Notes under the pieces: model-generated
Seen by the model: the letters and a program-made list of their open reading frames with translations, nothing else
The model's database searches: none
Told to the model about the DNA's origin: nothing
Part shown: in pieces, positions 26,281-37,279 of the stretch
Layout of the letters: the number at the start of each line of letters is the position of its first letter
Numbering within the stretch: position 1 is the stretch's first letter
DNA from: Lentilactobacillus raoultii
GTDB taxonomy: Bacteria > Bacillota > Bacilli > Lactobacillales > Lactobacillaceae
DNA: 64,000 bases
NCBI RefSeq assembly: GCF_900411375.1
Contig: NZ_LS423002.1
Coordinates: 1-64,000 of the forward strand
Reading direction: 5' to 3'
Program-made: the position numbers and the translations under genes

Positions 26281-26355
26281 AATCGCAGTTGCAAGACTGA
26301 AAATTATCTCTGGAAAGATATTTCAACCAAACTTTTTTGAAGCTTAAAACCAATT

Positions 26356-26387
26356 TTAAGGTTGAGTTAAGGTAGGACCGTTATTCT
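26356..26387 (+). promoter_or_regulatory. TTAAG direct-repeat promoter (for sRNA 1)
   Basis: TTAAG at 26356-26360 and 26367-26371 (11-nt pitch), then exactly 10 nt to TATTCT (26382-26387). The repeats occupy the -35 region, as in promoters activated by OmpR-family regulators. TTAAG at an 11-nt pitch is also the layout reported for streptococcal CiaR sites. Confidence 0.6.
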
Positions 26388-26393
26388 TTAGAT

Positions 26394-26648
26394 ATTAAAT
26401 ATTCAGAGTGTTTAAGCAAATGATTTCTTCTGATGATACCCTACTCCAAGCGAAAATGTATTTGAAGATGATGAACCCTTAATACCCCCGCTCTGAATAT
26501 TTTGGGAAATGCAATGTACTGTTAGGATACCCGATAATAACTCGCCCCAGATAATTACTAATACCAATAATTTCTAACGAATACACACTCTAGTTACATT
26601 TTCCCTCAAAGTAGCCTTGTTGCAGATGCACAGGGCTTTTTTGTTTGA
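26394..26648 (+). ncRNA. Predicted small RNA 1 (C-rich, terminator-ended)
   Basis: From the expected start near 26394 the transcript opens with AATATTCAGAG (26398-26408), which pairs perfectly with CTCTGAATATT (26491-26501), closing a large loop that exposes ACCCTACTCC and AACCCTTAATACCCCC. A single-stranded stretch follows with GCCCCAG and TTCCCTCAAAG (26601-26611), then a terminator at 26613-26646. TTCCCTCAAAG just before the terminator recurs in small RNA 2. The only ORF is a 20-codon frame without a ribosome site. Prediction from sequence only. Confidence 0.5.
26613..26646 (+). terminator. Intrinsic terminator of sRNA 1
   Basis: AGCCTTGT pairs with ACAGGGCT, followed by TTTTT. Confidence 0.75.
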
Positions 26649-26655
26649 AACCTGA

Positions 26656-26702
26656 AAGTGGTCGGCTGATTTCTTTAACGAGATCAAGCCGACCATTTTT
26701 TA
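26656..26702 (+). terminator. Second terminator hairpin
   Basis: TGGTCGGCTGAT pairs with ATCAAGCCGACCA (one bulged base) and runs into six T. It insulates the next TTAAG promoter (26718) from sRNA 1. Confidence 0.75.
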
Positions 26703-26717
26703 ATTTAGACAATATAT

Positions 26718-26749
26718 TTAAGCTTCAATTAAGCTGTGCCGGTTATTCT
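26718..26749 (+). promoter_or_regulatory. TTAAG direct-repeat promoter, distal of a pair
   Basis: TTAAG at 26718-26722 and 26729-26733, 10 nt, then TATTCT (26744-26749). Exactly 100 nt upstream of an almost identical promoter at 26818. Both would transcribe sRNA 2 and the 29-codon peptide. Confidence 0.6.
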
Positions 26750-26817
26750 ATTAACAATCAAATATGACCAAGCAAGTAGAGATAATTCAAAAAAATAATT
26801 AACAAACTGAAATTGAT

Positions 26818-26849
26818 TTAAGCTTCGATTAAGCTGTAAGTTATATGAT
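26818..26849 (+). promoter_or_regulatory. TTAAG direct-repeat promoter, proximal of a pair
   Basis: TTAAG at 26818-26822 and 26829-26833, 10 nt, then TATGAT (26844-26849). The repeat block TTTAAGCTTC-R-ATTAAGCTGT is shared with the site at 26718. Confidence 0.65.
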
Positions 26850-26898
26850 ACAGACAATTAATCAAAGTTGATGAATGAAAACGAAAGGAATGATTGCA

Positions 26899-26988
26899 AT
26901 GACAGTGGCAATAAAGAGACGACCTAAATTTAAATATGATAAGACAATCACTAAAAAATACCGAGTGGTGGTATGGCGTTGTTATTAA
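26899..26988 (+). CDS. 29-aa highly cationic peptide
   Basis: ATG 26899 follows AAAGGA closely, with ATG 26890 directly after that site, so initiation seems plausible. The product has 29 residues (MTVAIKRRPKFKYDKTITKK then YRVVVWRCY) with eleven Lys/Arg and one Asp, and one Cys near the end. No signal or leader. It could be a regulatory peptide, a toxin-like peptide or a by-product of the RNA. It lies between the TTAAG promoters and the C-rich RNA tail. No homologue is known to me. Confidence 0.4.
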   Translation: MTVAIKRRPKFKYDKTITKKYRVVVWRCY

Positions 26989-27229
26989 ACAATTGCGACC
27001 CAAGTTATTTAGGCGAATCACCTGAGTTAATTCAGTTCGAGAGCTGAAACTCAGCACTCGCCAACACAATCTTGAAAGAAGTGATGCGATGACCAGTAAC
27101 TTGTAACTTGTAATTTGTAACTTAGTGCAACCCATGCACTTAAAAACTCACCCCTCAAATAATCAAAAATACGATTTCTTAACTAACTTTATGATAAATA
27201 CCCTTCAATATAATAAACTCTTCCCTCAA

Positions 27230-27256
27230 AGTCCTGCGCGAACAGGGCTTTTTCTT
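27230..27256 (+). terminator. Intrinsic terminator of sRNA 2
   Basis: AGTCCTG-cgcgaa-CAGGGCT followed by TTTTCTT. Confidence 0.75.
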
Positions 27257-27271
27257 ATGGATTTCCAACAA

Positions 27272-29056
27272 TTAAGATCTTCTTTTCCTAAAGATCCCCA
27301 GAACAATCAGTCCCAGCCATCCCAGCAAGGAGAGCATTGAAAACAGGCTTCCCAACTTTGTGCCGTGACTTTGGATACTAATAGTTGCCTGATTAACTGT
27401 TTTGGGAATTCGTAGTTTAAAGGTGCCACGTTTTGAAAGTGATGATTTTAAGGGATGACCGTTGAATTTAACGGTATAGTTCATGCCGGTATAACGAATA
27501 AACGGTAAGTCCAAGAAAGTAGCTTTTTTCATTGGAACCTGCAGATGATAGGTGATGACGTTGCTTCCCGATTGGATACTGTCAGCGGCAATTTTAAACG
27601 ATTGACCATTTAGTATCGCTGCTTTATTGGCTAATTCGTCAATATAGTGGCCAGAAGTAGTCGGTAAATAATCTGTTCGACCGGAGCCGTTATCGGTTGG
27701 AAATTGGTTGTTATAATCCTCATTGTTAACTTTATAATTTTGCAAATTCAGATTGGATCTGGGAATTTGATGAGTGGGGGTGGCTTTGTACGATAGTTCT
27801 GGCTGACTGGTTCGATCGAATTGGTTATCGAATGGATTTTGGCTGGTTGTGACATTCATCGGATAAAGCGCTGAATAACTGAAAGAATTGAGTAGGCAGA
27901 AACTAAAACCGATCAACAACCCGCAAGCACTCAACCAGTGGTGATTGAATTTAGCATTAATGAAGTAAGCACCAAAAGCGGCGAGAAACATGAGCACGAC
28001 CGGCATGATCCGGTGGCCACTTTGGATAGCTTCAATACCTCTGATAAGTGGCAGATGATGAATCAGATTCCATGGGAAAAGATTTGATAAAACAAACAGT
28101 GTGGCAATTCCGCCAAAGTATGCCAGACGACCAACCTTAGGCATTGATTTGAGAAAAAGGAAGCCGAATATCAGGAAAAACAATAGAATAAGGCCGATCC
28201 CTTTGTTGGCAATACTTTGATTAAATAAGGTGAATAAATTTTGGGGATCTTTGTAGAGATTTTGTGGCTCTGGTCGCATTAACTTTTGGCTTAACGTCAA
28301 AGTTGCCAATGGTCCCCAGACAATTAAGCTGAGTATTAAGGTGTAGATCGCAGAAATGGCTAGGTAGAAGAAACGGGTTAGTCGTTCGTTAACCGGCTGT
28401 TCTGTGAAGAAAATCAAGTAAAAAATAAGCAGGGCAACAATCACAATCAAACTGGTTGGTGCATGGGCGTACATAATGCCAATGACTCCAATAACTAATA
28501 AGTACCAGCGTCGATAGTCTTTGAACATTGCTTGATAAAGACCAGCAAAGGCCAACGGAATGAACGGATAGGAAAGAAATTCACCAAACTGGGTAGTGAT
28601 AATCTCCATCACCAGATAGGTGGTCAGACCATAAAAAATAGCAAATAGAAATGCAACTCTGCGGGACTGGGCAACTAATCTCATACTTTAGTAGGCGAGA
28701 AGCAATGTTGTGAGAATTATCAAAACATATGTAAAGTAGATGGCACTGACGGCTGAAAAGATGAATTTAAATCCGGCAAATAAATACAACCATACCCACG
28801 GGTAGCACGCCACTACCGCATCACCGAGCTGATTAAAAGTGTGGGTGGCAATATGACTGATTAAGGTGCCGTGTTTTAGATTAAGAAATATTTCTTGAAT
28901 ACGGCTAAGGTGAAATTGTAAGTCCGGGCCGGAATATAAGTGCATGGTCACCCAGAATGGCAAGACGACTAGAAATGATAATACGCCGAATATGACAGTC
29001 ACAGTTAAATCTTTGTGCTGTCGGAGCTTCGATATTAAACTTTGCAATAAAAGCAC
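27272..29056 (-). pseudogene. Large membrane protein (YfhO-like) split by one in-frame TAA
   Basis: Two open frames (29056-28688 and 28684-27272) are in the same phase, separated only by TAA at 28690-28688 (...LLLAY, stop, SMRLVAQS...). Together they give about 594 residues: cytoplasmic start, about 12 hydrophobic segments, the extracytoplasmic GPDLQFHLSRIQEI typical of membrane glycosyltransferase-like (YfhO/6-pyruvoyl-type) proteins and a C-terminal beta domain ending in a membrane segment and RKRRS. One base change (for example TAT to TAA) explains the break. The downstream part could restart at ATG 28684 but lacks the N-terminal segments. Start is GTG 29056 or TTG 29047; GAGGGAG favours the latter. 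Confidence 0.75.
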
Positions 29057-29403
29057 ACTCCCTCATTTGTGAAGCAATTTAAAATGGTGTTCTAAAAATA
29101 ACCAGAGCACTGCTAATCTAATTGCTTGATTATAACTATCATACGGTGAGAAAGTGTGATTTTCAATTGCTGATTAATGGGTTAAATAAAGTCCAAGTAG
29201 CGTTGTCACTGGCAATAGGATATAGAGAATCATATTTGATACTGACTAAGTGGCGATCGTCGAATTGCAGCGTCCACGCATCTCTTTAGGGCGATAACAG
29301 TGGCAATGTTTAAATTGTGAGTCGATTAATTTTCATTAGTAAGCCCCTCTTCAAAAGTTAGGATTCTAGTTACGACAAAGTTTTGGAAAGAAATTTAAGT
29401 GGC
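29057..29403. other. Intergenic interval with no recognisable gene
   Basis: Holds the leader of the broken YfhO-like gene and, at its right end, the TTAAG promoter at 29404. No ORF with a ribosome site is visible. Confidence 0.4.
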
Positions 29404-29435
29404 TTAAGCTTCAGTTAAGGTAGAAACGATATGAT
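29404..29435 (+). promoter_or_regulatory. TTAAG direct-repeat promoter (for sRNA 3)
   Basis: TTAAG at 29404-29408 and 29415-29419, 10 nt, TATGAT (29430-29435, extending to TATGATAAT). This is the best member of the set. Confidence 0.65.
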
Positions 29436-29441
29436 AATGAC

Positions 29442-29657
29442 AATCAAATAAGGGAAGTGGAAGCAACCCTTATTTGGTGAAAGTGGTGTAGCGGTACTTG
29501 ATTGGCTGCTTTAAGAAAGTTGATAATAATTAACCCCTCAAAATAATTATTTTCCCCCAACGATTTCTTAACCAACTTTAGATGAATAACCCTTCAATAT
29601 TAATGAAAAATCTTCCCCCCTAAATTGACTTAAGCCACGTGCTTGGGTCTTTTTTTA
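29442..29657 (+). ncRNA. Predicted small RNA 3 (C-rich, terminator-ended)
   Basis: About 215 nt. The 5' end forms a perfect 10-bp hairpin, CAAATAAGGG/CCCTTATTTG (29445-29476). The unstructured body carries four C-rich motifs: ACCCCTCAAA (29533), TTCCCCCA (about 29552), AACCCTTCAATAT (29588) and CTTCCCCCC (29612). A 9-bp terminator (29627-29657) follows. The order ACCCCTCAAA, CGATTTCTTAACYAACTTTA, ACCCTTCAATAT, CTTCCC is the same as in sRNA 2. No ORF with a ribosome site. The motifs are complementary to GAGGGG/GAAGGG Shine-Dalgarno sequences. Confidence 0.55.
29627..29657 (+). terminator. Intrinsic terminator of sRNA 3
   Basis: GACTTAAGC-cacgt-GCTTGGGTC (nine pairs including G-U) followed by TTTTTTT. 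Confidence 0.8.
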
Positions 29658-29782
29658 AACTTATAAGGTATTATAAAATTCTAGAGCGTGGTAACTGTTG
29701 AACTGCTAACGATCATCATGCTTTTAATTTTCACAAAATGGTAGTCAAAGCTTATCTTCACTATGTAGCCATGATTTTAAGA

Positions 29783-31043: not shown

Positions 31044-32369
31044 ATGGCAAGCTCGAATACTAGATGGGCAACCCGCTGGCCCGAGCGCATCAGCTATGGG
31101 TTAAGTGATGCGGCTGACAATTTAGTGTTTCAAATGATGACAACCTATTTACTCTTCTTCTATACCGACGTTTACGGATTAAGTGCCAGTGCAGCTGCAA
31201 TTCTATTTATTGTTGCACGAGTGGCAGACGTTGTTGAAAGTTTTGTGATTGGTGTGATGATTGACCACACTCATTCCAGATTTGGCAAAAGTCGGCCTTT
31301 CTTTTTGTGGTACGCATTTCCATACGTTATTTTTGCAATTTTGACATTCATTACACCGAACTTTTCATATGGCGGGAAAATTGCCTGGGCATATTTTACG
31401 TACCTGGGACTCGGCTTCCTGTACACTGCCGTTAATCTGCCGATTACTTCAATTTTACCAACACTGTCACGGAACTCTCGCGAACTAACTTTGTTGGGGG
31501 TAATTCGTCAATTCTTTGGCAGTTTGGTTCAGATTATTGTGGCCGTGTTCACTCTGCCATTAGTCGCTTTGTTTGGTAAAGGCGATCAGCGAACCGGCTT
31601 TTTAGGAACGATTATCTTATTTGGTATCATCTCATTGTTTTTGATTTTGAACACGTTCGTTCATGTTCGTGAGCGTTATGCTAACCCAGAGATTGCCCAT
31701 CAACCGTTAAAATAAGTTTTGGCAATGGTTCGACGTAATCAGCCTTGGATCATTATCTCAGTTTCAATCTTTATGTATTGGTTGGTAACGTCAATCAAGA
31801 ATCAAACCACCATTTACTATTTCAAGTACGTGATGGGAAATGAAAATCTGGTTCCATTGGCCAATAGTTTCACCTTTACGTCATTGATTGGGGTCCTATT
31901 GATTATGCGGATCACGGAAACCCAGAGTAAAAAGCGAACCATGATGAGTGGGATTTTAGTGGCATTTGTCGGCCAAATTGTGATTGCACTAGGCGTCTAC
32001 CTCAATCAGGTGCCGACGTTATTTGGCGGGATTTTCATCAATTCAATTGGTAACGGGATTATTATTGGGCTGGTATCAATTATGATTGCCGATACCATTC
32101 GTTATGGCGTCAGCATGGGCGTTCAAGCTGAAGGTATTCTCGCTTCAACCGATGACTTTGGTGTTAACTTTGGCCTGGGAATCGGTGGTTTGATTACCGC
32201 CGGCCTCTTTCACCTTTCCGGTTACGTTGCCAATCATCAACAGAACGCCGCGACGATTACCATGATTAACGTCAATTACGTTTGGCTGCCATTGGCGATC
32301 TATGCAGGGATGTACTTTGTGATGCGGCTGTATAATGAGCAGCAGATATTGGATGAGATTAAAGGATAG
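31044..32369 (+). pseudogene. GPH-family sugar:cation symporter split by one in-frame TAA
   Basis: 31044-31715 and 31719-32369 are in one frame, interrupted only by TAA at 31713-31715 (HQPLK, stop, VLAMVRRNQPW). Repaired, the protein has 441 residues and 12 membrane segments with GPH hallmarks: RISYGLSDAADNLVFQMM at the start, DHTHSRFGKSRPF in loop 2-3. Relatives carry xylosides, melibiose, lactose or glucuronides. CAA to TAA would explain the stop. The second half could restart internally, but neither half should transport alone. Ribosome site CAGGTGG before the ATG. Confidence 0.8.
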
Positions 32370-32426: not shown

Positions 32427-32512
32427 TTACAGTGATTCGGTATTTAAGCTTTTATTATGATAAAATTAACATAAGTTATTCTGTGATTAGAATTAGCAGG
32501 GGGTCGGGAAGA

Positions 32513-35500
32513 ATGGTTGTAGAAACTCACGAATTAGCTTTTGAGGATGAGCTGATTCATTTTTTAACAAGAATTGGTGGCACTAAGCAATGGCAGTATT
32601 TGCCAAACGTTAAGACAACGGAGCAGCTTTGGGCAAATTTCAGACATATTTTGGAACTGAATAATCCCGATAAACTATCTCAACCGCTTTCTAAAACCGA
32701 ATTTGCTCAAGTTAAACGTGAAATTAACAATTTGAGAACACCTTATCAAGCTGGCCAATTTTTGTATGGGTTAAATGGAAAATCTGAAATTGAGTTGGAT
32801 TTGGATGATGGTCGTCACGTTTATCTAACGGTGTTTGATCAGGACCAAATTGGCGCTGGAGATACTGTTTATCAAGTTGTGAATCAAATTGAGCGGGCAC
32901 CGGTTTTAGCTGGCCGAAAGAAACGTCGATTTGACACCACATTGCTCATTAATGGCTTGCCAATTATCCAAATTGAAGAAAAAGCCGACGGAAAAGATGC
33001 TAAAGAAGCGTTGAACCAGATGAAACAGTACATATCTGAGCAACAATACACGGGAATTTTTGCGACTTTGCAAATTCTAGTCGGCATGACGCCCCATGAC
33101 ATTCGCTACATGGCAAATGCAACGGAGCATCAATTTAATATGGACTTTACTTTTAGGTGGCAACGTGAAAAAGACAACGTACCAGTTCATGACTGGCAGG
33201 AATTTACAAATGCGGTGCTATCCATTCCGATGGCTCACCAAATGGCCACCAACTATATGATTTTGGATGGAACACCAAATAAACAAATGATTAAAGTGAT
33301 GCGGCCTTATCAGGTTTATGCAACAAGACGGATAATGGATAAGCTGCGGATTCACCAATTTGGTGTCGATGATAAAGAGATTGGTTATGTCTGGCACACA
33401 ACTGGCTCGGGTAAAACCATCAGCTCGTTTAAAGCAGCGTGGCTGGCTTCACGGCTTCCTAATGTTGATAAAGTCGTGTTTCTGGTTGATCGAATTGCAC
33501 TCACAAATCAGACTTATGATGAGTACAGTGCTTATGATCCTGGGACAGATCAGGAAAGTACTAAAGGCGGCATTGTTGAGGATACGGCTAATAAACGAGC
33601 TTTACTGGCTAAACTAAAGAAAAAAGGAACTGGGATTATTGTGACGTCCATTCAAAAAATGGATGGTTTGGTTCGCCAGCACCATAATCCGTTTGAGCGG
33701 CGAGTAGTATTTATTGTCGACGAAGCCCACCGATCAACGTCTGGCGATATGTTGCAGCGAATTAAAAAAGCGTTTAAGAAATCGGCTTGGATTGGATATA
33801 CCGGGACACCACGATTTGATGAAGATGATGGCCCCACGACTCGTGACATCTTTGGTGATTTGATTCATGCATACACTATTCGGGATGCAATCGCTGATAA
33901 AAATGTTTTAGGATTTAAGGTTGATTTTGAGACAACCTTATCTGATGAAACGTTGCGAAAGCAGTATTTACCACGGTATTTTAAGTTTCGATATCCAAAT
34001 TGGTCTTCAGAACAAATTGAACATCGAATTGAAAATATCACGCCTGAAGATATGGATGATGCCATTGTTCCAAGCGTCTATGATATGAATCAAAAGCATG
34101 TTTATCTGGTTGTAAAAGATATCTTATCGAAATGGCAGAACAGATCATCAGAGTATCGTTATAATGCACTATTCACAACTCATGTTGGTGGCGGTAAGGC
34201 CTCTACTCCTATGGCGATGATGTATTATCGAGAATTTCTTGCGCAAAATAAGCATTTGGCAAAACCGTTGAAAATTGCAATTACTTTTAGCCAGTCAACT
34301 AATAATGGCGATCACCAATTACAGGCAAATAAAGATCTTCGAGAAGCAGTTGATCATTATAATCATTTATTCGGCACATCTTTTGACGATACAAACATGG
34401 GCGACTATACACAGGATGTGGTGGATCGGTTGAGTCGAACAGCTGATGATGGAAAATATCTTGACCTGGTAATTGTCATTGACCAATTGCTGACGGGCTT
34501 CAATGCACCGGAGTTAAACACGCTTTACGTTGATCGAACATTAAAAGGTGCCAGTTTAATTCAAGCTTATTCAAGAACTAATCGAGTTGTTGATATGCAA
34601 TCCAAACCGTGGGGTAGAATTGTCAATTATCGATGGCCGAAGCAGACTGAAAAGCTAATGAAGGAAGCATTAGCAGTTTACGCTAATCCGGACTCTGCAA
34701 ATGTTCAAACCACTTTGGATTTGCCAAACGATGGTACCATTTTAGCTAAAACTTTTGAGGATCTTCAAAAGGATCTTTCAAAAACGGTGACAACGATTAG
34801 TGATTTAACTAATGATTTTGAAGCGGTTCCTAAAAGTGAAAATTCTCAAGATGAGTTATATAGTCAATTGCAAACATATAATCGAACAATGGCTCAATTA
34901 AAGCAGGATGATCGATACGACAGTGATCATCCGGAGAAGTTATTAAAAGAAGTTGGCATGACACCTGATCATGAAGAATTATTAACAACGACTTTTGCAA
35001 ATGAATTGAAAGATCGGATTGCCAAGAAGCAACATTTAAGTGTCGGCGATTTGGATCTTCGGATGGAACATGTTAAAGACATTCAGGTCAATTACGATTA
35101 CTTGGAAGAATTAATTGCTCAATTGGCTAATCAGGTTCATGAGCATCAAATGGAAGATGCTGCAAAGACCAGGGGAACGGTTGATCAGATTGCGGATCAA
35201 ATTCCGGATGAACATTATCGACAACAGGTTAAGCATTTTAATCAAGACTTATATGAAGGTAATACAGAAGTTGCCACTTATCCTGTACAAACAGAGGATG
35301 TTAAGCAGTTAATTCTTGATCATGCTAATAATCGAAAGCGGATGCAAATTCTGGCATTTAAAAAGCGATGGGGGTTAGTCGATATTCCATCAACCAAACA
35401 AATTAATGGCTTGTTGCTACATCACACACTTGGGGCAGATGATTTAAACCAGATGGGTGAGCTGAATAATATTATTCACGAAGCTCAAGGCTATTATGAA

Positions 35501-35608
35501 ACGGATGCTGAGGATCCTAACGTGCGAACTTTGCACAAACTCAAGTATCGTAATCATTTACGGCAAGCTTTCACAGCATTTGCTGATCAATTAAAACGTA
35601 ACTTTTAA
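32513..35608 (+). CDS. hsdR: Type I restriction enzyme R subunit
   Basis: 1031 residues from ATG 32513 after AGGGGGTCGGGA; the open frame begins earlier but without a ribosome site. N-terminal PD-(D/E)XK nuclease with Glu155-x-Lys157 (IIQIEEKADG), then a SF2 translocase with Walker A TGSGKT (Lys301), DEAH at 403-406 (FIVDEAHRS) and motif VI SRTNRVVDMQ. It cuts and translocates unmodified DNA in complex with HsdM and HsdS. First gene of hsdRMS; hsdM begins 15 nt after its stop. Confidence 0.95.
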   Translation: MVVETHELAFEDELIHFLTRIGGTKQWQYLPNVKTTEQLWANFRHILELNNPDKLSQPLSKTEFAQVKREINNLRTPYQAGQFLYGLNGKSEIELDLDDGRHVYLTVFDQDQIGAGDTVYQVVNQIERAPVLAGRKKRRFDTTLLINGLPIIQIEEKADGKDAKEALNQMKQYISEQQYTGIFATLQILVGMTPHDIRYMANATEHQFNMDFTFRWQREKDNVPVHDWQEFTNAVLSIPMAHQMATNYMILDGTPNKQMIKVMRPYQVYATRRIMDKLRIHQFGVDDKEIGYVWHTTGSGKTISSFKAAWLASRLPNVDKVVFLVDRIALTNQTYDEYSAYDPGTDQESTKGGIVEDTANKRALLAKLKKKGTGIIVTSIQKMDGLVRQHHNPFERRVVFIVDEAHRSTSGDMLQRIKKAFKKSAWIGYTGTPRFDEDDGPTTRDIFGDLIHAYTIRDAIADKNVLGFKVDFETTLSDETLRKQYLPRYFKFRYPNWSSEQIEHRIENITPEDMDDAIVPSVYDMNQKHVYLVVKDILSKWQNRSSEYRYNALFTTHVGGGKASTPMAMMYYREFLAQNKHLAKPLKIAITFSQSTNNGDHQLQANKDLREAVDHYNHLFGTSFDDTNMGDYTQDVVDRLSRTADDGKYLDLVIVIDQLLTGFNAPELNTLYVDRTLKGASLIQAYSRTNRVVDMQSKPWGRIVNYRWPKQTEKLMKEALAVYANPDSANVQTTLDLPNDGTILAKTFEDLQKDLSKTVTTISDLTNDFEAVPKSENSQDELYSQLQTYNRTMAQLKQDDRYDSDHPEKLLKEVGMTPDHEELLTTTFANELKDRIAKKQHLSVGDLDLRMEHVKDIQVNYDYLEELIAQLANQVHEHQMEDAAKTRGTVDQIADQIPDEHYRQQVKHFNQDLYEGNTEVATYPVQTEDVKQLILDHANNRKRMQILAFKKRWGLVDIPSTKQINGLLLHHTLGADDLNQMGELNNIIHEAQGYYETDAEDPNVRTLHKLKYRNHLRQAFTAFADQLKRNF

Positions 35609-35623
35609 GGGGAAAGACAAAAG

Positions 35624-37279
35624 ATGGCGGAAACTAAAAATACAGCAAGAGATATTACCAATCAGCTCTGGGCAATGGCAAATGAGCTGCGAGGAAATAT
35701 GGACGCAAGTGAATTTCGAAATTATATTTTAGGCTTTTTGTTTTATCGGTACCTTTCTGAAAATCAAGAAGCTTATTTGAAGGCTCAGGATTTATTGGAC
35801 ATCCAGGTAGGTGAATCGGTCAATGACGCTTATTTAAGGGAAGCCAGCGGGGATGATCTAAACGATTATCTTGAAGATATTGCTGGTTCTTTAGGCTATG
35901 CAATGCCACCTGAGAGCACTTGGGCCACTATCGTTAACAAAGTGGAACAGGACGAGATTCGAACTTCCGACTTTCAAGATATGTTTGATAACTTTGAAAA
36001 GAATGCATTGTTAAATCCTAATTCTCGGGCTGACTTTCGGGGCATTTTTACTGACATTAATTTAGGCAATAGCCGACTGGGTAACTCAACAGCTGCTCGT
36101 GGTAAGGCGCTGAGTAACATTGTGACAATGATTAATACCTTCGATTATAACGATGAAAATGGTCACGATATTCTTGGCGATGTGTATGAGTATTTAATTG
36201 CCCAATTTGCTGGGAACTCCGGCAAGAAAGCGGGTGAATTCTATACGCCACACGAAGTCTCACAGGTATTAGCAAAGTTGGTGACGTTGCATTTACAGAA
36301 GGATAACGAACAGTTCACGGTATTTGATCCGGCGATGGGATCGGGTTCTCTGCTATTAACGGTTGGTTCAGAAGTGCCGGGTGGTTATCAGTCGGGACGG
36401 GTTCACTTTCATGGACAGGAATTGAATACGACGACATATAACTTGGCGAGAATGAATTTGATGATGCATGGGGTCTCTTATCAGAATATGACGTTACGAA
36501 ATGCGGACTCACTTGAGATGGATTGGCCGGATGGAGTGGATGCTCAAGGAATCGATCACCCACGTAGTTTTGATGCAGTGGTCGAAAACCCACCGTATTC
36601 TGCTCATTGGGATAATCAGGACAGCAAGATGAAGGACGTGCGATTTAAGGAGTATGGCTTGGCACCTAAATCGAAGGCCGATTTTGCTTTCTTATTAGAT
36701 GGCCTCTATCACGTTAACAATGCGGGCACAATGGCAATTGTTTTGCCACATGGTGTGCTCTTTCGAGGTGCCAAGGAAGGTAAAATTCGTCAAGCCTTGT
36801 TGGAAAAGCATCAGATTGATGCCATTATCGGGATGCCTGCCGGATTGTTTTATTCGACGGGGATTCCAACGATTATCATGGTTTTGAAAAAGCAGCGACA
36901 AACCGATGACGTCTTGTTTATTGATGCCAGTCGTGATTTTGAAAAGGGGAAAAATCAAAACCATCTGCGTGCTCAGGATATTGATAAGATTGTTTCAACT
37001 TATCAAAAGCGCCAAGACGTTGATAAGTACGCCCATGTTGCCACCATGGACGAAATCAAGGAAAACGAATTTAATCTCAACATTCCAAGATATGTAGATA
37101 CGTTTGAACCAGAACCACCAGTTGACGTTGACAAGTTGGTTTCGGATATTAAGAATACAGACGAACAAATTAGCAAATTGGAGTCTGAATTTTCGCCAAT
37201 GCTGAATGATCTTGAAGGCAAGAACCCTGTCGCTCAACAGCAGCTTGCTAAGATTAAGGAGTTGTTTAAAAATGAGTGA
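35624..37279 (+). CDS. hsdM: Type I restriction-modification M subunit
   Basis: 551 residues. N-terminal helical HsdM domain (residues about 10-130), then an N6-adenine methyltransferase with SAM motif I FDPAMGSGSLLL (234-245) and catalytic motif IV NPPY (322-325). It methylates adenine at sites chosen by HsdS. AAGGGGAAAG precedes ATG 35624. The last bases overlap the hsdS start (ATGAGTGA), so translation is coupled. Confidence 0.96.
   Translation: MAETKNTARDITNQLWAMANELRGNMDASEFRNYILGFLFYRYLSENQEAYLKAQDLLDIQVGESVNDAYLREASGDDLNDYLEDIAGSLGYAMPPESTWATIVNKVEQDEIRTSDFQDMFDNFEKNALLNPNSRADFRGIFTDINLGNSRLGNSTAARGKALSNIVTMINTFDYNDENGHDILGDVYEYLIAQFAGNSGKKAGEFYTPHEVSQVLAKLVTLHLQKDNEQFTVFDPAMGSGSLLLTVGSEVPGGYQSGRVHFHGQELNTTTYNLARMNLMMHGVSYQNMTLRNADSLEMDWPDGVDAQGIDHPRSFDAVVENPPYSAHWDNQDSKMKDVRFKEYGLAPKSKADFAFLLDGLYHVNNAGTMAIVLPHGVLFRGAKEGKIRQALLEKHQIDAIIGMPAGLFYSTGIPTIIMVLKKQRQTDDVLFIDASRDFEKGKNQNHLRAQDIDKIVSTYQKRQDVDKYAHVATMDEIKENEFNLNIPRYVDTFEPEPPVDVDKLVSDIKNTDEQISKLESEFSPMLNDLEGKNPVAQQQLAKIKELFKNE

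Follow-up and report, generated by a model that had tools for sequence, protein, structure and literature searches.

Does a set of promoters built on repeated TTAAG motifs in Lentilactobacillus raoultii drive a family of C-rich small RNAs (sRNAs) aimed at Shine-Dalgarno (SD) sequences, and which regulator would control such a family? The locus lies in a 64,000-nt stretch of DNA (contig NZ_LS423002.1, positions 1 to 64,000; hereafter the window) belonging to a genome of 3.07 Mb in 29 contigs. An initial annotation of the window had proposed a multicopy C-rich sRNA family parallel to the cia-dependent small RNAs (csRNAs) of Streptococcus and the LhrC RNAs of Listeria; sibling RNAs, motifs complementary to SD sequences, a CiaR box, and a CiaR-type regulator support that parallel. 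The multicopy C-rich family with its SD-complementary motifs is present as described, but the description of all three of its RNAs as ORF-poor does not hold, for one of them encodes a peptide. We think it likely that the locus belongs to a regulon of csRNA/LhrC-like sibling sRNAs that works under a CiaR-type regulator outside Streptococcus and has a dual-function member. The promoter family, its conservation, purifying selection on the open reading frame (ORF), covariation in a hairpin, the ancestry of the regulator, and the complementarity to start regions were all computed here. The regulon is real and conserved and its class of mechanism is ordinary; the host, the scale, and the peptide-coding member are new, and the functional steps proposed for it below are predictions.

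The direct-repeat promoter pattern TTAAG-N6-TTAAG-N10-TATNNT (the box) was found at four sites in the window (26356, 26718, 26818, and 29404), which account for four of the six matches with zero mismatches in the whole genome. The matching features, all on the + strand, are promoter 1 (TTAAGGTTGAGTTAAG-N10-TATTCT, 26355..26387), promoter 2 (26717..26749), promoter 3 (TTAAGCTTCGATTAAG-N10-TATGAT, 26817..26849), and promoter 4 (TTAAGCTTCAGTTAAG-N10-TATGAT, 29403..29435). Three TTAAG promoters had been claimed, and those three are in place, but the count was too low because it missed the box at 26718. This promoter 2 precedes promoter 3 by 100 bp, would yield a 5′-extended RNA2, and is also found in tandem with promoter 3 in genome G005. 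The other three boxes lead into C-rich RNAs ending in terminators: RNA1 (∼252 nt), RNA2 (∼400 nt), and RNA3 (∼215 nt). The intrinsic terminators predicted for them are present, that of RNA1 having appeared in its fold and being absent from the terminator scan. All four sites agree with the published CiaR box, NTTAAG-N5-TTTAAG with a −10 element ten nt downstream, apart from the first T of the second repeat, which is A or G at all four whereas the published consensus has T. Judged by its sequence, the promoter family of the window is the published streptococcal CiaR box. A slightly wider form of the pattern gave 65 matches across 21 of 24 genomes of the genus and none when reversed; among 201 Lactobacillaceae genomes, it gave 63 matches in 31 genomes against 4 for the reversed control.

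The genome holding the window encodes nine OmpR-type regulators. One of these, G000:C5:316637, shows 52–56% identity to a set of eight regulators (family f4, genus g43). Two of the eight agree with the published CiaR helix (VVEVYVSKVRKKL) at all 13 of its positions, five at 12, and one at 11, and we take the set as Streptococcus CiaR. The corresponding helix of C5:316637 (VVEVYMSNLRKKI) matches at 9 of 13 positions and those of its eight paralogues at 6 at most; overall identity to the paralogues does not exceed 37%. The NCBIfam matches listed for C5:316637 (the best 25 of 90) included no CiaR model, and a phylogenetic tree was therefore used instead. In the tree, C5:316637 falls into one group with CiaR and the relatives of CiaR from Lactobacillales (support 100/100), and all eight paralogues lie outside this group; several paralogues have very long branches, and for this reason the grouping with CiaR is the sole tree result used. 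The kinase encoded beside C5:316637 is 35–37% identical overall to the streptococcal kinases and 21–26% identical over its first 200 residues, a divergence that may explain why CiaH has been reported as streptococcal only.

Among the 201 Lactobacillaceae genomes, a regulator match at E ≤ 1e-50 is present in 28 of the 31 with a box and in 81 of the 170 without one (Fisher's exact test, p = 7e-6, uncorrected for kinship). In 10 of the 28, representing three genera, box and regulator match are 18–191 bp apart, and a box with two mismatches is found 101 bp upstream of C5:316637 itself. OmpR-family regulators generally bind direct repeats with an 11-bp period, and the box might thus belong to a different OmpR-family regulator of the genome, its likeness to the CiaR box being convergent. 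The three box genomes in which the regulator is missing at E ≤ 1e-50 would suit this alternative, as would the sampled genomes of genera g23 and g32, which have a close regulator (68–71%) and no strict box. We nonetheless consider it improbable, given that the box adjoins the CiaR-type gene in ten genomes of three genera, that C5:316637 alone of the nine regulators falls with CiaR, and that the repeat, its spacing, and the −10 distance equal the published ones.

With a CiaR-type regulator as the preferred candidate for control of the box, we turn to the transcripts, of which RNA2 (26856..27252, + strand; alignment and fold) is a candidate dual-function RNA. It had been described as ORF-poor, and this proved wrong: a conserved 29-codon frame, ORF1, lies at 26899..26988 on the + strand behind the SD sequence GAAAGGAA (26883-26890, + strand) and encodes the peptide MTVAIKRRPKFKYDKTITKKYRVVVWRCY. 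The peptide ends in VW(S/R)CY, and the Y, V, W, C, and Y of the pattern -KY...VW(S/R)CY are invariant in 14 copies, that of the window included, which represent 13 distinct peptides. Synonymous codons differ at these invariant residues, and the median ratio of nonsynonymous to synonymous substitution rates (dN/dS) is 0.29, based on the 57 of 91 pairs that allowed its calculation. ORF1 is clearly coding, as judged by dN/dS, and under purifying selection, the mark expected of an ORF in a dual-function RNA; a purely noncoding RNA2 is thereby ruled out. A profile of the 13 peptides had matches at E < 1e-10 in 14 of the 24 genomes of the genus, a count that arises by construction from training rows or sequences identical to one, and none in 373 other Lactobacillaceae genomes (best E 0.004), which is the informative part of the result. 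L. kisonensis (G009) has an altered ORF1 frame only, lacking VWxCY. The VWxCY peptide, which has no Pfam or NCBIfam family match, is a conserved small protein linked to a putative antisense RNA.

The 3′ half of RNA2 carries two C motifs, ACCCCTCAA at 27150..27158 and ACCCTTCAATAT, the predicted seed, at 27200..27211, followed by an intrinsic terminator (27228..27252; terminator scan and consensus fold) with CTTCCCTCAAAG just before it. RNA3 (29442..29656), placed by similarity and fold, is a short sibling that lacks ORF1 and repeats this arrangement, with ACCCCTCAA at 29533..29541, the seed ACCCTTCAATAT at 29589..29600, and a scanned terminator at 29627..29656; all of these features are on the + strand. 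The shared blocks claimed for the two tails were confirmed by a genome search, which gave an 86% match with E 1.3e-9 (query positions 33-90). In the window, ACCCYTCAA occurs 5 times against 1.19 expected, a number reached by 1 of 100 shuffles, and 4 of the 5 copies fall in the RNA2 and RNA3 tails. Alignment of 15 long RNAs of the RNA2 type showed the letters CCC.TCAATAT of the second C motif to be invariant while most of the leader varies, and their consensus fold leaves the C motifs unpaired. RNA3 relatives occur in 9 of the 24 genomes of the genus, its own included, with more than one match in five of the nine; every RNA3-relative locus that was fetched has a box, and most share the transcript start ACAATCAAAT. 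Individual RNAs of the family carry one to four copies of CCC(C/T)TCAA, four being found in L. parabuchneri. The window's RNAs thus show redundant CU-rich sites in multicopy RNAs, as LhrC does.

These tails bear on whether RNA2 might be a plain mRNA for a small peptide, its C-rich tail a 3′ untranslated remnant and the short copies decayed duplicates. ORF1 is indeed coding, and two short copies in L. diolivorans hold frames that may be decayed ORF1 (e.g., MTVQSKIKPHHL). Yet the second C motif is invariant in sequences whose leader mostly is not, eight short copies in five genomes keep the tail and have no intact ORF1, and C-rich runs are found in RNA1 and other box RNAs that have no ORF1, so that a plain mRNA seems to us quite unlikely. 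The initial annotation had counted a coding frame replacing the conserved C-rich motifs as evidence against sRNAs; a coding frame was found in RNA2, but it stands alongside conserved C-rich motifs.

To see what else the box drives, we surveyed 64 of the 65 sites in the genus (one was left out) and sites in other genera. The outputs in the genus include at least class A RNAs (the long RNAs with ORF1), short RNA3-type RNAs, RNA1-type RNAs, and class B transcripts, together with exported proteins, proteins that we take to be acyltransferase-like, and an orphan histidine kinase (L039:4170-5531, C2). This kinase is 51% identical to the one beside the CiaR-type regulator and is a possible second sensor feeding that regulator. 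The window's genome holds one more C-rich RNA, at C7:178089, behind a strict pattern with one mismatch, and four relatives have additional short RNAs behind a box with an altered spacer. Class B was examined at ten loci (L042 at C12:70566, L069, L074, L078, L086, L091, L093, L095, L100, and L107), and its small ORF, of 27–37 and mostly 36 codons, has by eye a single hydrophobic stretch. Nine of the ten loci carry CTCCTCCAA, which we presume to resemble the anti-SD sequence of 16S rRNA, and the locus of genome G005 has none. Class B transcripts are a second dual-function candidate. In other genera, short C-rich RNAs lie behind the box at g33 loci L115, L116, L120, and L123, where they are nearer 110 nt, and at g20 loci L109, L110, and L111; a C-rich RNA was not evident at the remaining sites among the 20 loci examined there. 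Also outside the genus, a gene for a LytR-CpsA-Psr protein lies behind the box.

The consensus fold of the 15 long RNAs contains two elements only, the terminator and a hairpin, H, at 27022..27054 (+ strand). A pattern search found hairpin H at 22 places, and after exclusion of one copy with a longer loop, 21 were aligned (15 class A, 5 class B, and 1 other; 19 distinct). In this alignment, 17 cells changed on both sides of a pair versus 4.8 in shuffles, with none of 500 shuffles as high, and 91% of cells pair versus at most 46% when slid; because some letters in each arm were set by the search patterns, the pairing percentage leans to structure. The consensus fold of the 15 long RNAs, which involved no such selection, gives the same hairpin, with changes on both sides at 3 of 9 pairs. 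Across the 24 genomes, every match of a hairpin H model with E below 0.03 lay in a box transcript. Hairpin H is common to class A and class B RNAs that are otherwise different (27022-27054; also L042, L074, L078, L095, L104, and L107). Behind it, at 27072..27091 (+ strand), the alignment shows an SD and start element, TTGAAAGAAGTGATGCGATG, whose letters GAAAG-A--GATGC are invariant in 15 of 15 long RNAs and are followed by no conserved frame (MTSNL* in the window). A second peptide gene, ORF2, was ruled out at this position, for the SD and AUG are conserved and the frames vary among the 15. The element, having no conserved peptide, is perhaps a ribosome decoy.

This arrangement raises a further reading of ORF1, one compatible with the regulon proposed above, in which it is a leader or arrest peptide and a ribosome stalled at the invariant VWxCY would refold hairpin H and control the antisense half. 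ORF1 conservation peaks at the C terminus, and hairpin H and the conserved SD and AUG element lie downstream of it, as such a role would have it. However, no alternative pairing of ORF1 with hairpin H is seen in the consensus structure, the distance from stop codon to hairpin varies, and the mid-peptide KY is conserved too; we hold this role to be unlikely, while giving it some credence.

Returning to the antisense function favored here, complementarity of the C-rich motifs to SD and start regions, another claim made for the window, is borne out by computed matches of the seed to gene starts and by duplex energies. The seed ACCCTTCAATAT is complementary to the start regions of oppA-like lipoprotein genes; in one such gene, with the Pfam domain SBP_bac_5, ATATTGAAGGG at the SD is its exact complement, and an adjoining paralogue has the same. 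All 10 C segments of the RNAs pair better with gene starts than with gene interiors (76 genes). A search of the genus for ATATTGARGGG-N(3-14)-ATG returned 72 rows versus 3 for the reversed pattern. Of the 41 rows that were read, 23 are placed at starts of ORFs with at least 78 codons, among them L247 and L256, which were flagged inside a slightly longer ORF and taken as the same frame. The other 18 are sRNA antisense strands, gene interiors, or tiny ORFs; seed matches representing the antisense of known sRNAs or further sRNA copies were rejected as targets. The 31 unread rows comprise 17 antisense of known sRNAs, 10 repeats of row L276 of G001, 3 single rows (G018, G019, and G023), and 1 second match of one site. 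In L276, ATATTGAAGGGTTGGG precedes an ORF, and the same letters, which match the seed, are found in 11 of the 24 genomes; this ORF, read in one genome, is presumably ATP synthase delta-like.

By a simple hydropathy rule, exported proteins are encoded by 14 of the 23 rows and, when all oppA rows are taken as one family, by 9 of 18 families. The corresponding figure is 8 of 74 for background genes (p = 6e-4) and 16 of 101 for genes that lie near boxes in relatives (p = 0.003). In the window's own genome, 5 of 6 seed matches are at starts, and all 5 of these genes encode exported proteins: two oppA-like, one with SLBB and HHH domains, one GH25, and one unnamed; the SLBB/HHH protein we take to be ComEA-like. 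Duplexes computed for three species between each sRNA and the oppA start of its own genome have energies of −20 to −27 kcal/mol, and for 5 of 6 pairs none of 500 shuffles was as low. The RNAs might instead act as sponges or bind a protein through their C-rich runs or hairpin H, a role that the covariation of this hairpin, present in peptide-coding class A and B RNAs alike, and the repetition of identical modules, suited to titration, would fit. The complementarity of the seed to oppA-like start regions over 11–14 nt and the enrichment of exported-protein starts argue against it, and we regard it as very unlikely.

For antisense action on mRNAs, we propose the following model. The CiaR-type regulator C5:316637, with its own kinase, would bind TTAAG-N6-TTAAG and activate a cell-envelope regulon whose members would be exported proteins, the orphan paralogous kinase, and several C-rich sibling sRNAs. 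Class A and short RNAs would each present one to four copies of CCC(C/T)TCAA, most of them clear of the conserved structure predicted, and these would pair with the SD region of mRNAs, often those of exported proteins such as oppA-like lipoproteins, and block ribosome entry. RNA2 would be dual-function, its 5′ half encoding the 29-residue basic peptide that ends in VW(S/R)CY and its 3′ half forming the antisense module. Transcription, control by C5:316637, base pairing in the cell, and a function for the peptide are what we infer from the computed features.

Besides the exceptions to the co-occurrence of box and regulator given above, several observations weigh against this model. Compared with shuffled segments, 4 of the 10 C segments pair better by about 2 standard deviations or more and 3 by 0.7–1.4, and the remaining segments, R3b, R1a, and R1b, are barely or not above the shuffles. 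For the sixth sRNA-oppA pair, 34 of 500 shuffles gave an energy as low. In L. dabitei and L. rapi, the oppA mRNA has GAAGGG where the sRNA has CCCCTC, so the match shows no compensation, and 9 of the 18 families with a seed match encode proteins that are not exported. L. diolivorans has a degenerate first C motif, the minimum-energy fold of RNA3 pairs parts of the tail, and single-fold z-scores are modest for RNA1, RNA2, and RNA3 (−1.75 to −2.29).

How the window's RNAs relate to known systems was judged from the available parts of the csRNA, CiaR, and LhrC literature (PMC3091779, PMC4132741, PMC8186281, PMC8317062, PMC4507080, PMC5880928, PMC12735751). As described there, the csRNAs share with the window the NTTAAG-N5-TTTAAG promoter with its −10 element at 10 nt, a regulator of the CiaR subfamily, multiple sibling copies, terminator ends, and complementarity to SD or start regions, which here is computed. 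They differ in size, being 87–151 nt in S. pneumoniae (PMC4507080) as against the ∼252, 400, and 215 nt predicted here, and in host, which is another bacterial family; the window set further includes a peptide-coding RNA, and the kinases are divergent in their first 200 residues. Because of the size difference, and because CiaR control is predicted from sequence, we do not file the window RNAs as csRNAs. LhrC1-5 of Listeria are likewise multicopy with several redundant CU-rich sites per RNA, controlled by a cell-envelope two-component system, and directed at oppA through SD pairing, the last two features being predictions here. In the sections available, the LisR-responsive region of lhrC5 is placed further upstream, at −53 to −75, with no description of it as a TTAAG repeat, and the descriptions from Listeria mention no peptide such as that encoded by RNA2. 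No Rfam family matched the window at the gathering cut-off, the only weak match in 26300-29700 being RsaOG at 21.9 bits against a cut-off of 50, and on this ground the window RNAs are not LhrC. Nevertheless, the shared predicted target oppA suggests a common wiring in which envelope stress acts through anti-SD RNAs on surface lipoproteins. A short ORF and a base-pairing part are also combined on one RNA in the case of SR1 of Bacillus subtilis and VcdRP of Vibrio cholerae; they are likened here by published description only, come from other hosts, and differ from the window RNA in that its peptide has no family match.

Two publications, in the parts available, confine CiaRH to Streptococcus, and a third mentions it as a Streptococcus example alone (PMC12735751). 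None of the matches listed in a literature search that covered subscription journals thinly reported csRNAs or a CiaR box from Lactobacillaceae. A CiaR-type csRNA-like circuit outside Streptococcus would, if true, contrast with these streptococci-only statements, and if food lactobacilli have a regulon of CiaR-box sRNAs with candidate targets, questions about where sibling sRNAs came from and how they choose targets could be tested in harmless hosts. A broader version of the proposal, which we consider as apt to be wrong as right, is that CiaR-type regulators across Lactobacillales drive csRNA-like networks of C-rich sRNAs that predate or parallel the streptococcal ones and that two Lentilactobacillus RNAs are dual-function, one with the genus-specific 29-residue VWxCY peptide and one with a small membrane peptide of ∼36 residues; the two would have in common a covarying hairpin and anti-SD modules directed against surface proteins.

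RNA1 (26394..26645, + strand), delimited by its fold and by alignment of relatives, had been presented as kin of RNA2 and RNA3. The promoter type and C-rich motifs are indeed common to all three, but RNA1 is otherwise a separate sequence type. Its fold comprises a 12-bp closing stem (AAATATTCAGAG/CTCTGAATATTT), C-rich runs, and a terminator hairpin at ∼26614-26640 with a T run, and most of its C motifs are kept in 3 relatives. Coding by RNA1 was ruled out by eye, indels among the four relatives breaking the reading frames. In the fold of RNA3, ACCCCTC sits in the loop of an AT-rich hairpin. Neither RNA2 nor RNA3 had a match in a plasmid collection, a search with phages outside its scope, and there was no sign of plasmid origin.

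An inverted repeat with T and A runs, noted by eye behind RNA1 at 26657..26701, is probably a two-way terminator. Between RNA2 and RNA3, a large membrane protein is divided over two adjacent ORFs on the − strand (27272-28684 and 28688-29056; 470 and 122 aa), so the gene is probably broken in the window's strain. Downstream of the locus, 32432-37279 (+ strand) is, by reading, presumably occupied by the R and M subunits of a type I restriction-modification system. Two further + strand ORFs, 31044-31715 and 31719-32369 (223 and 216 aa), represent one protein, which we take to be sugar-transporter-like, and similar protein starts follow a class A or short RNA in several relatives.

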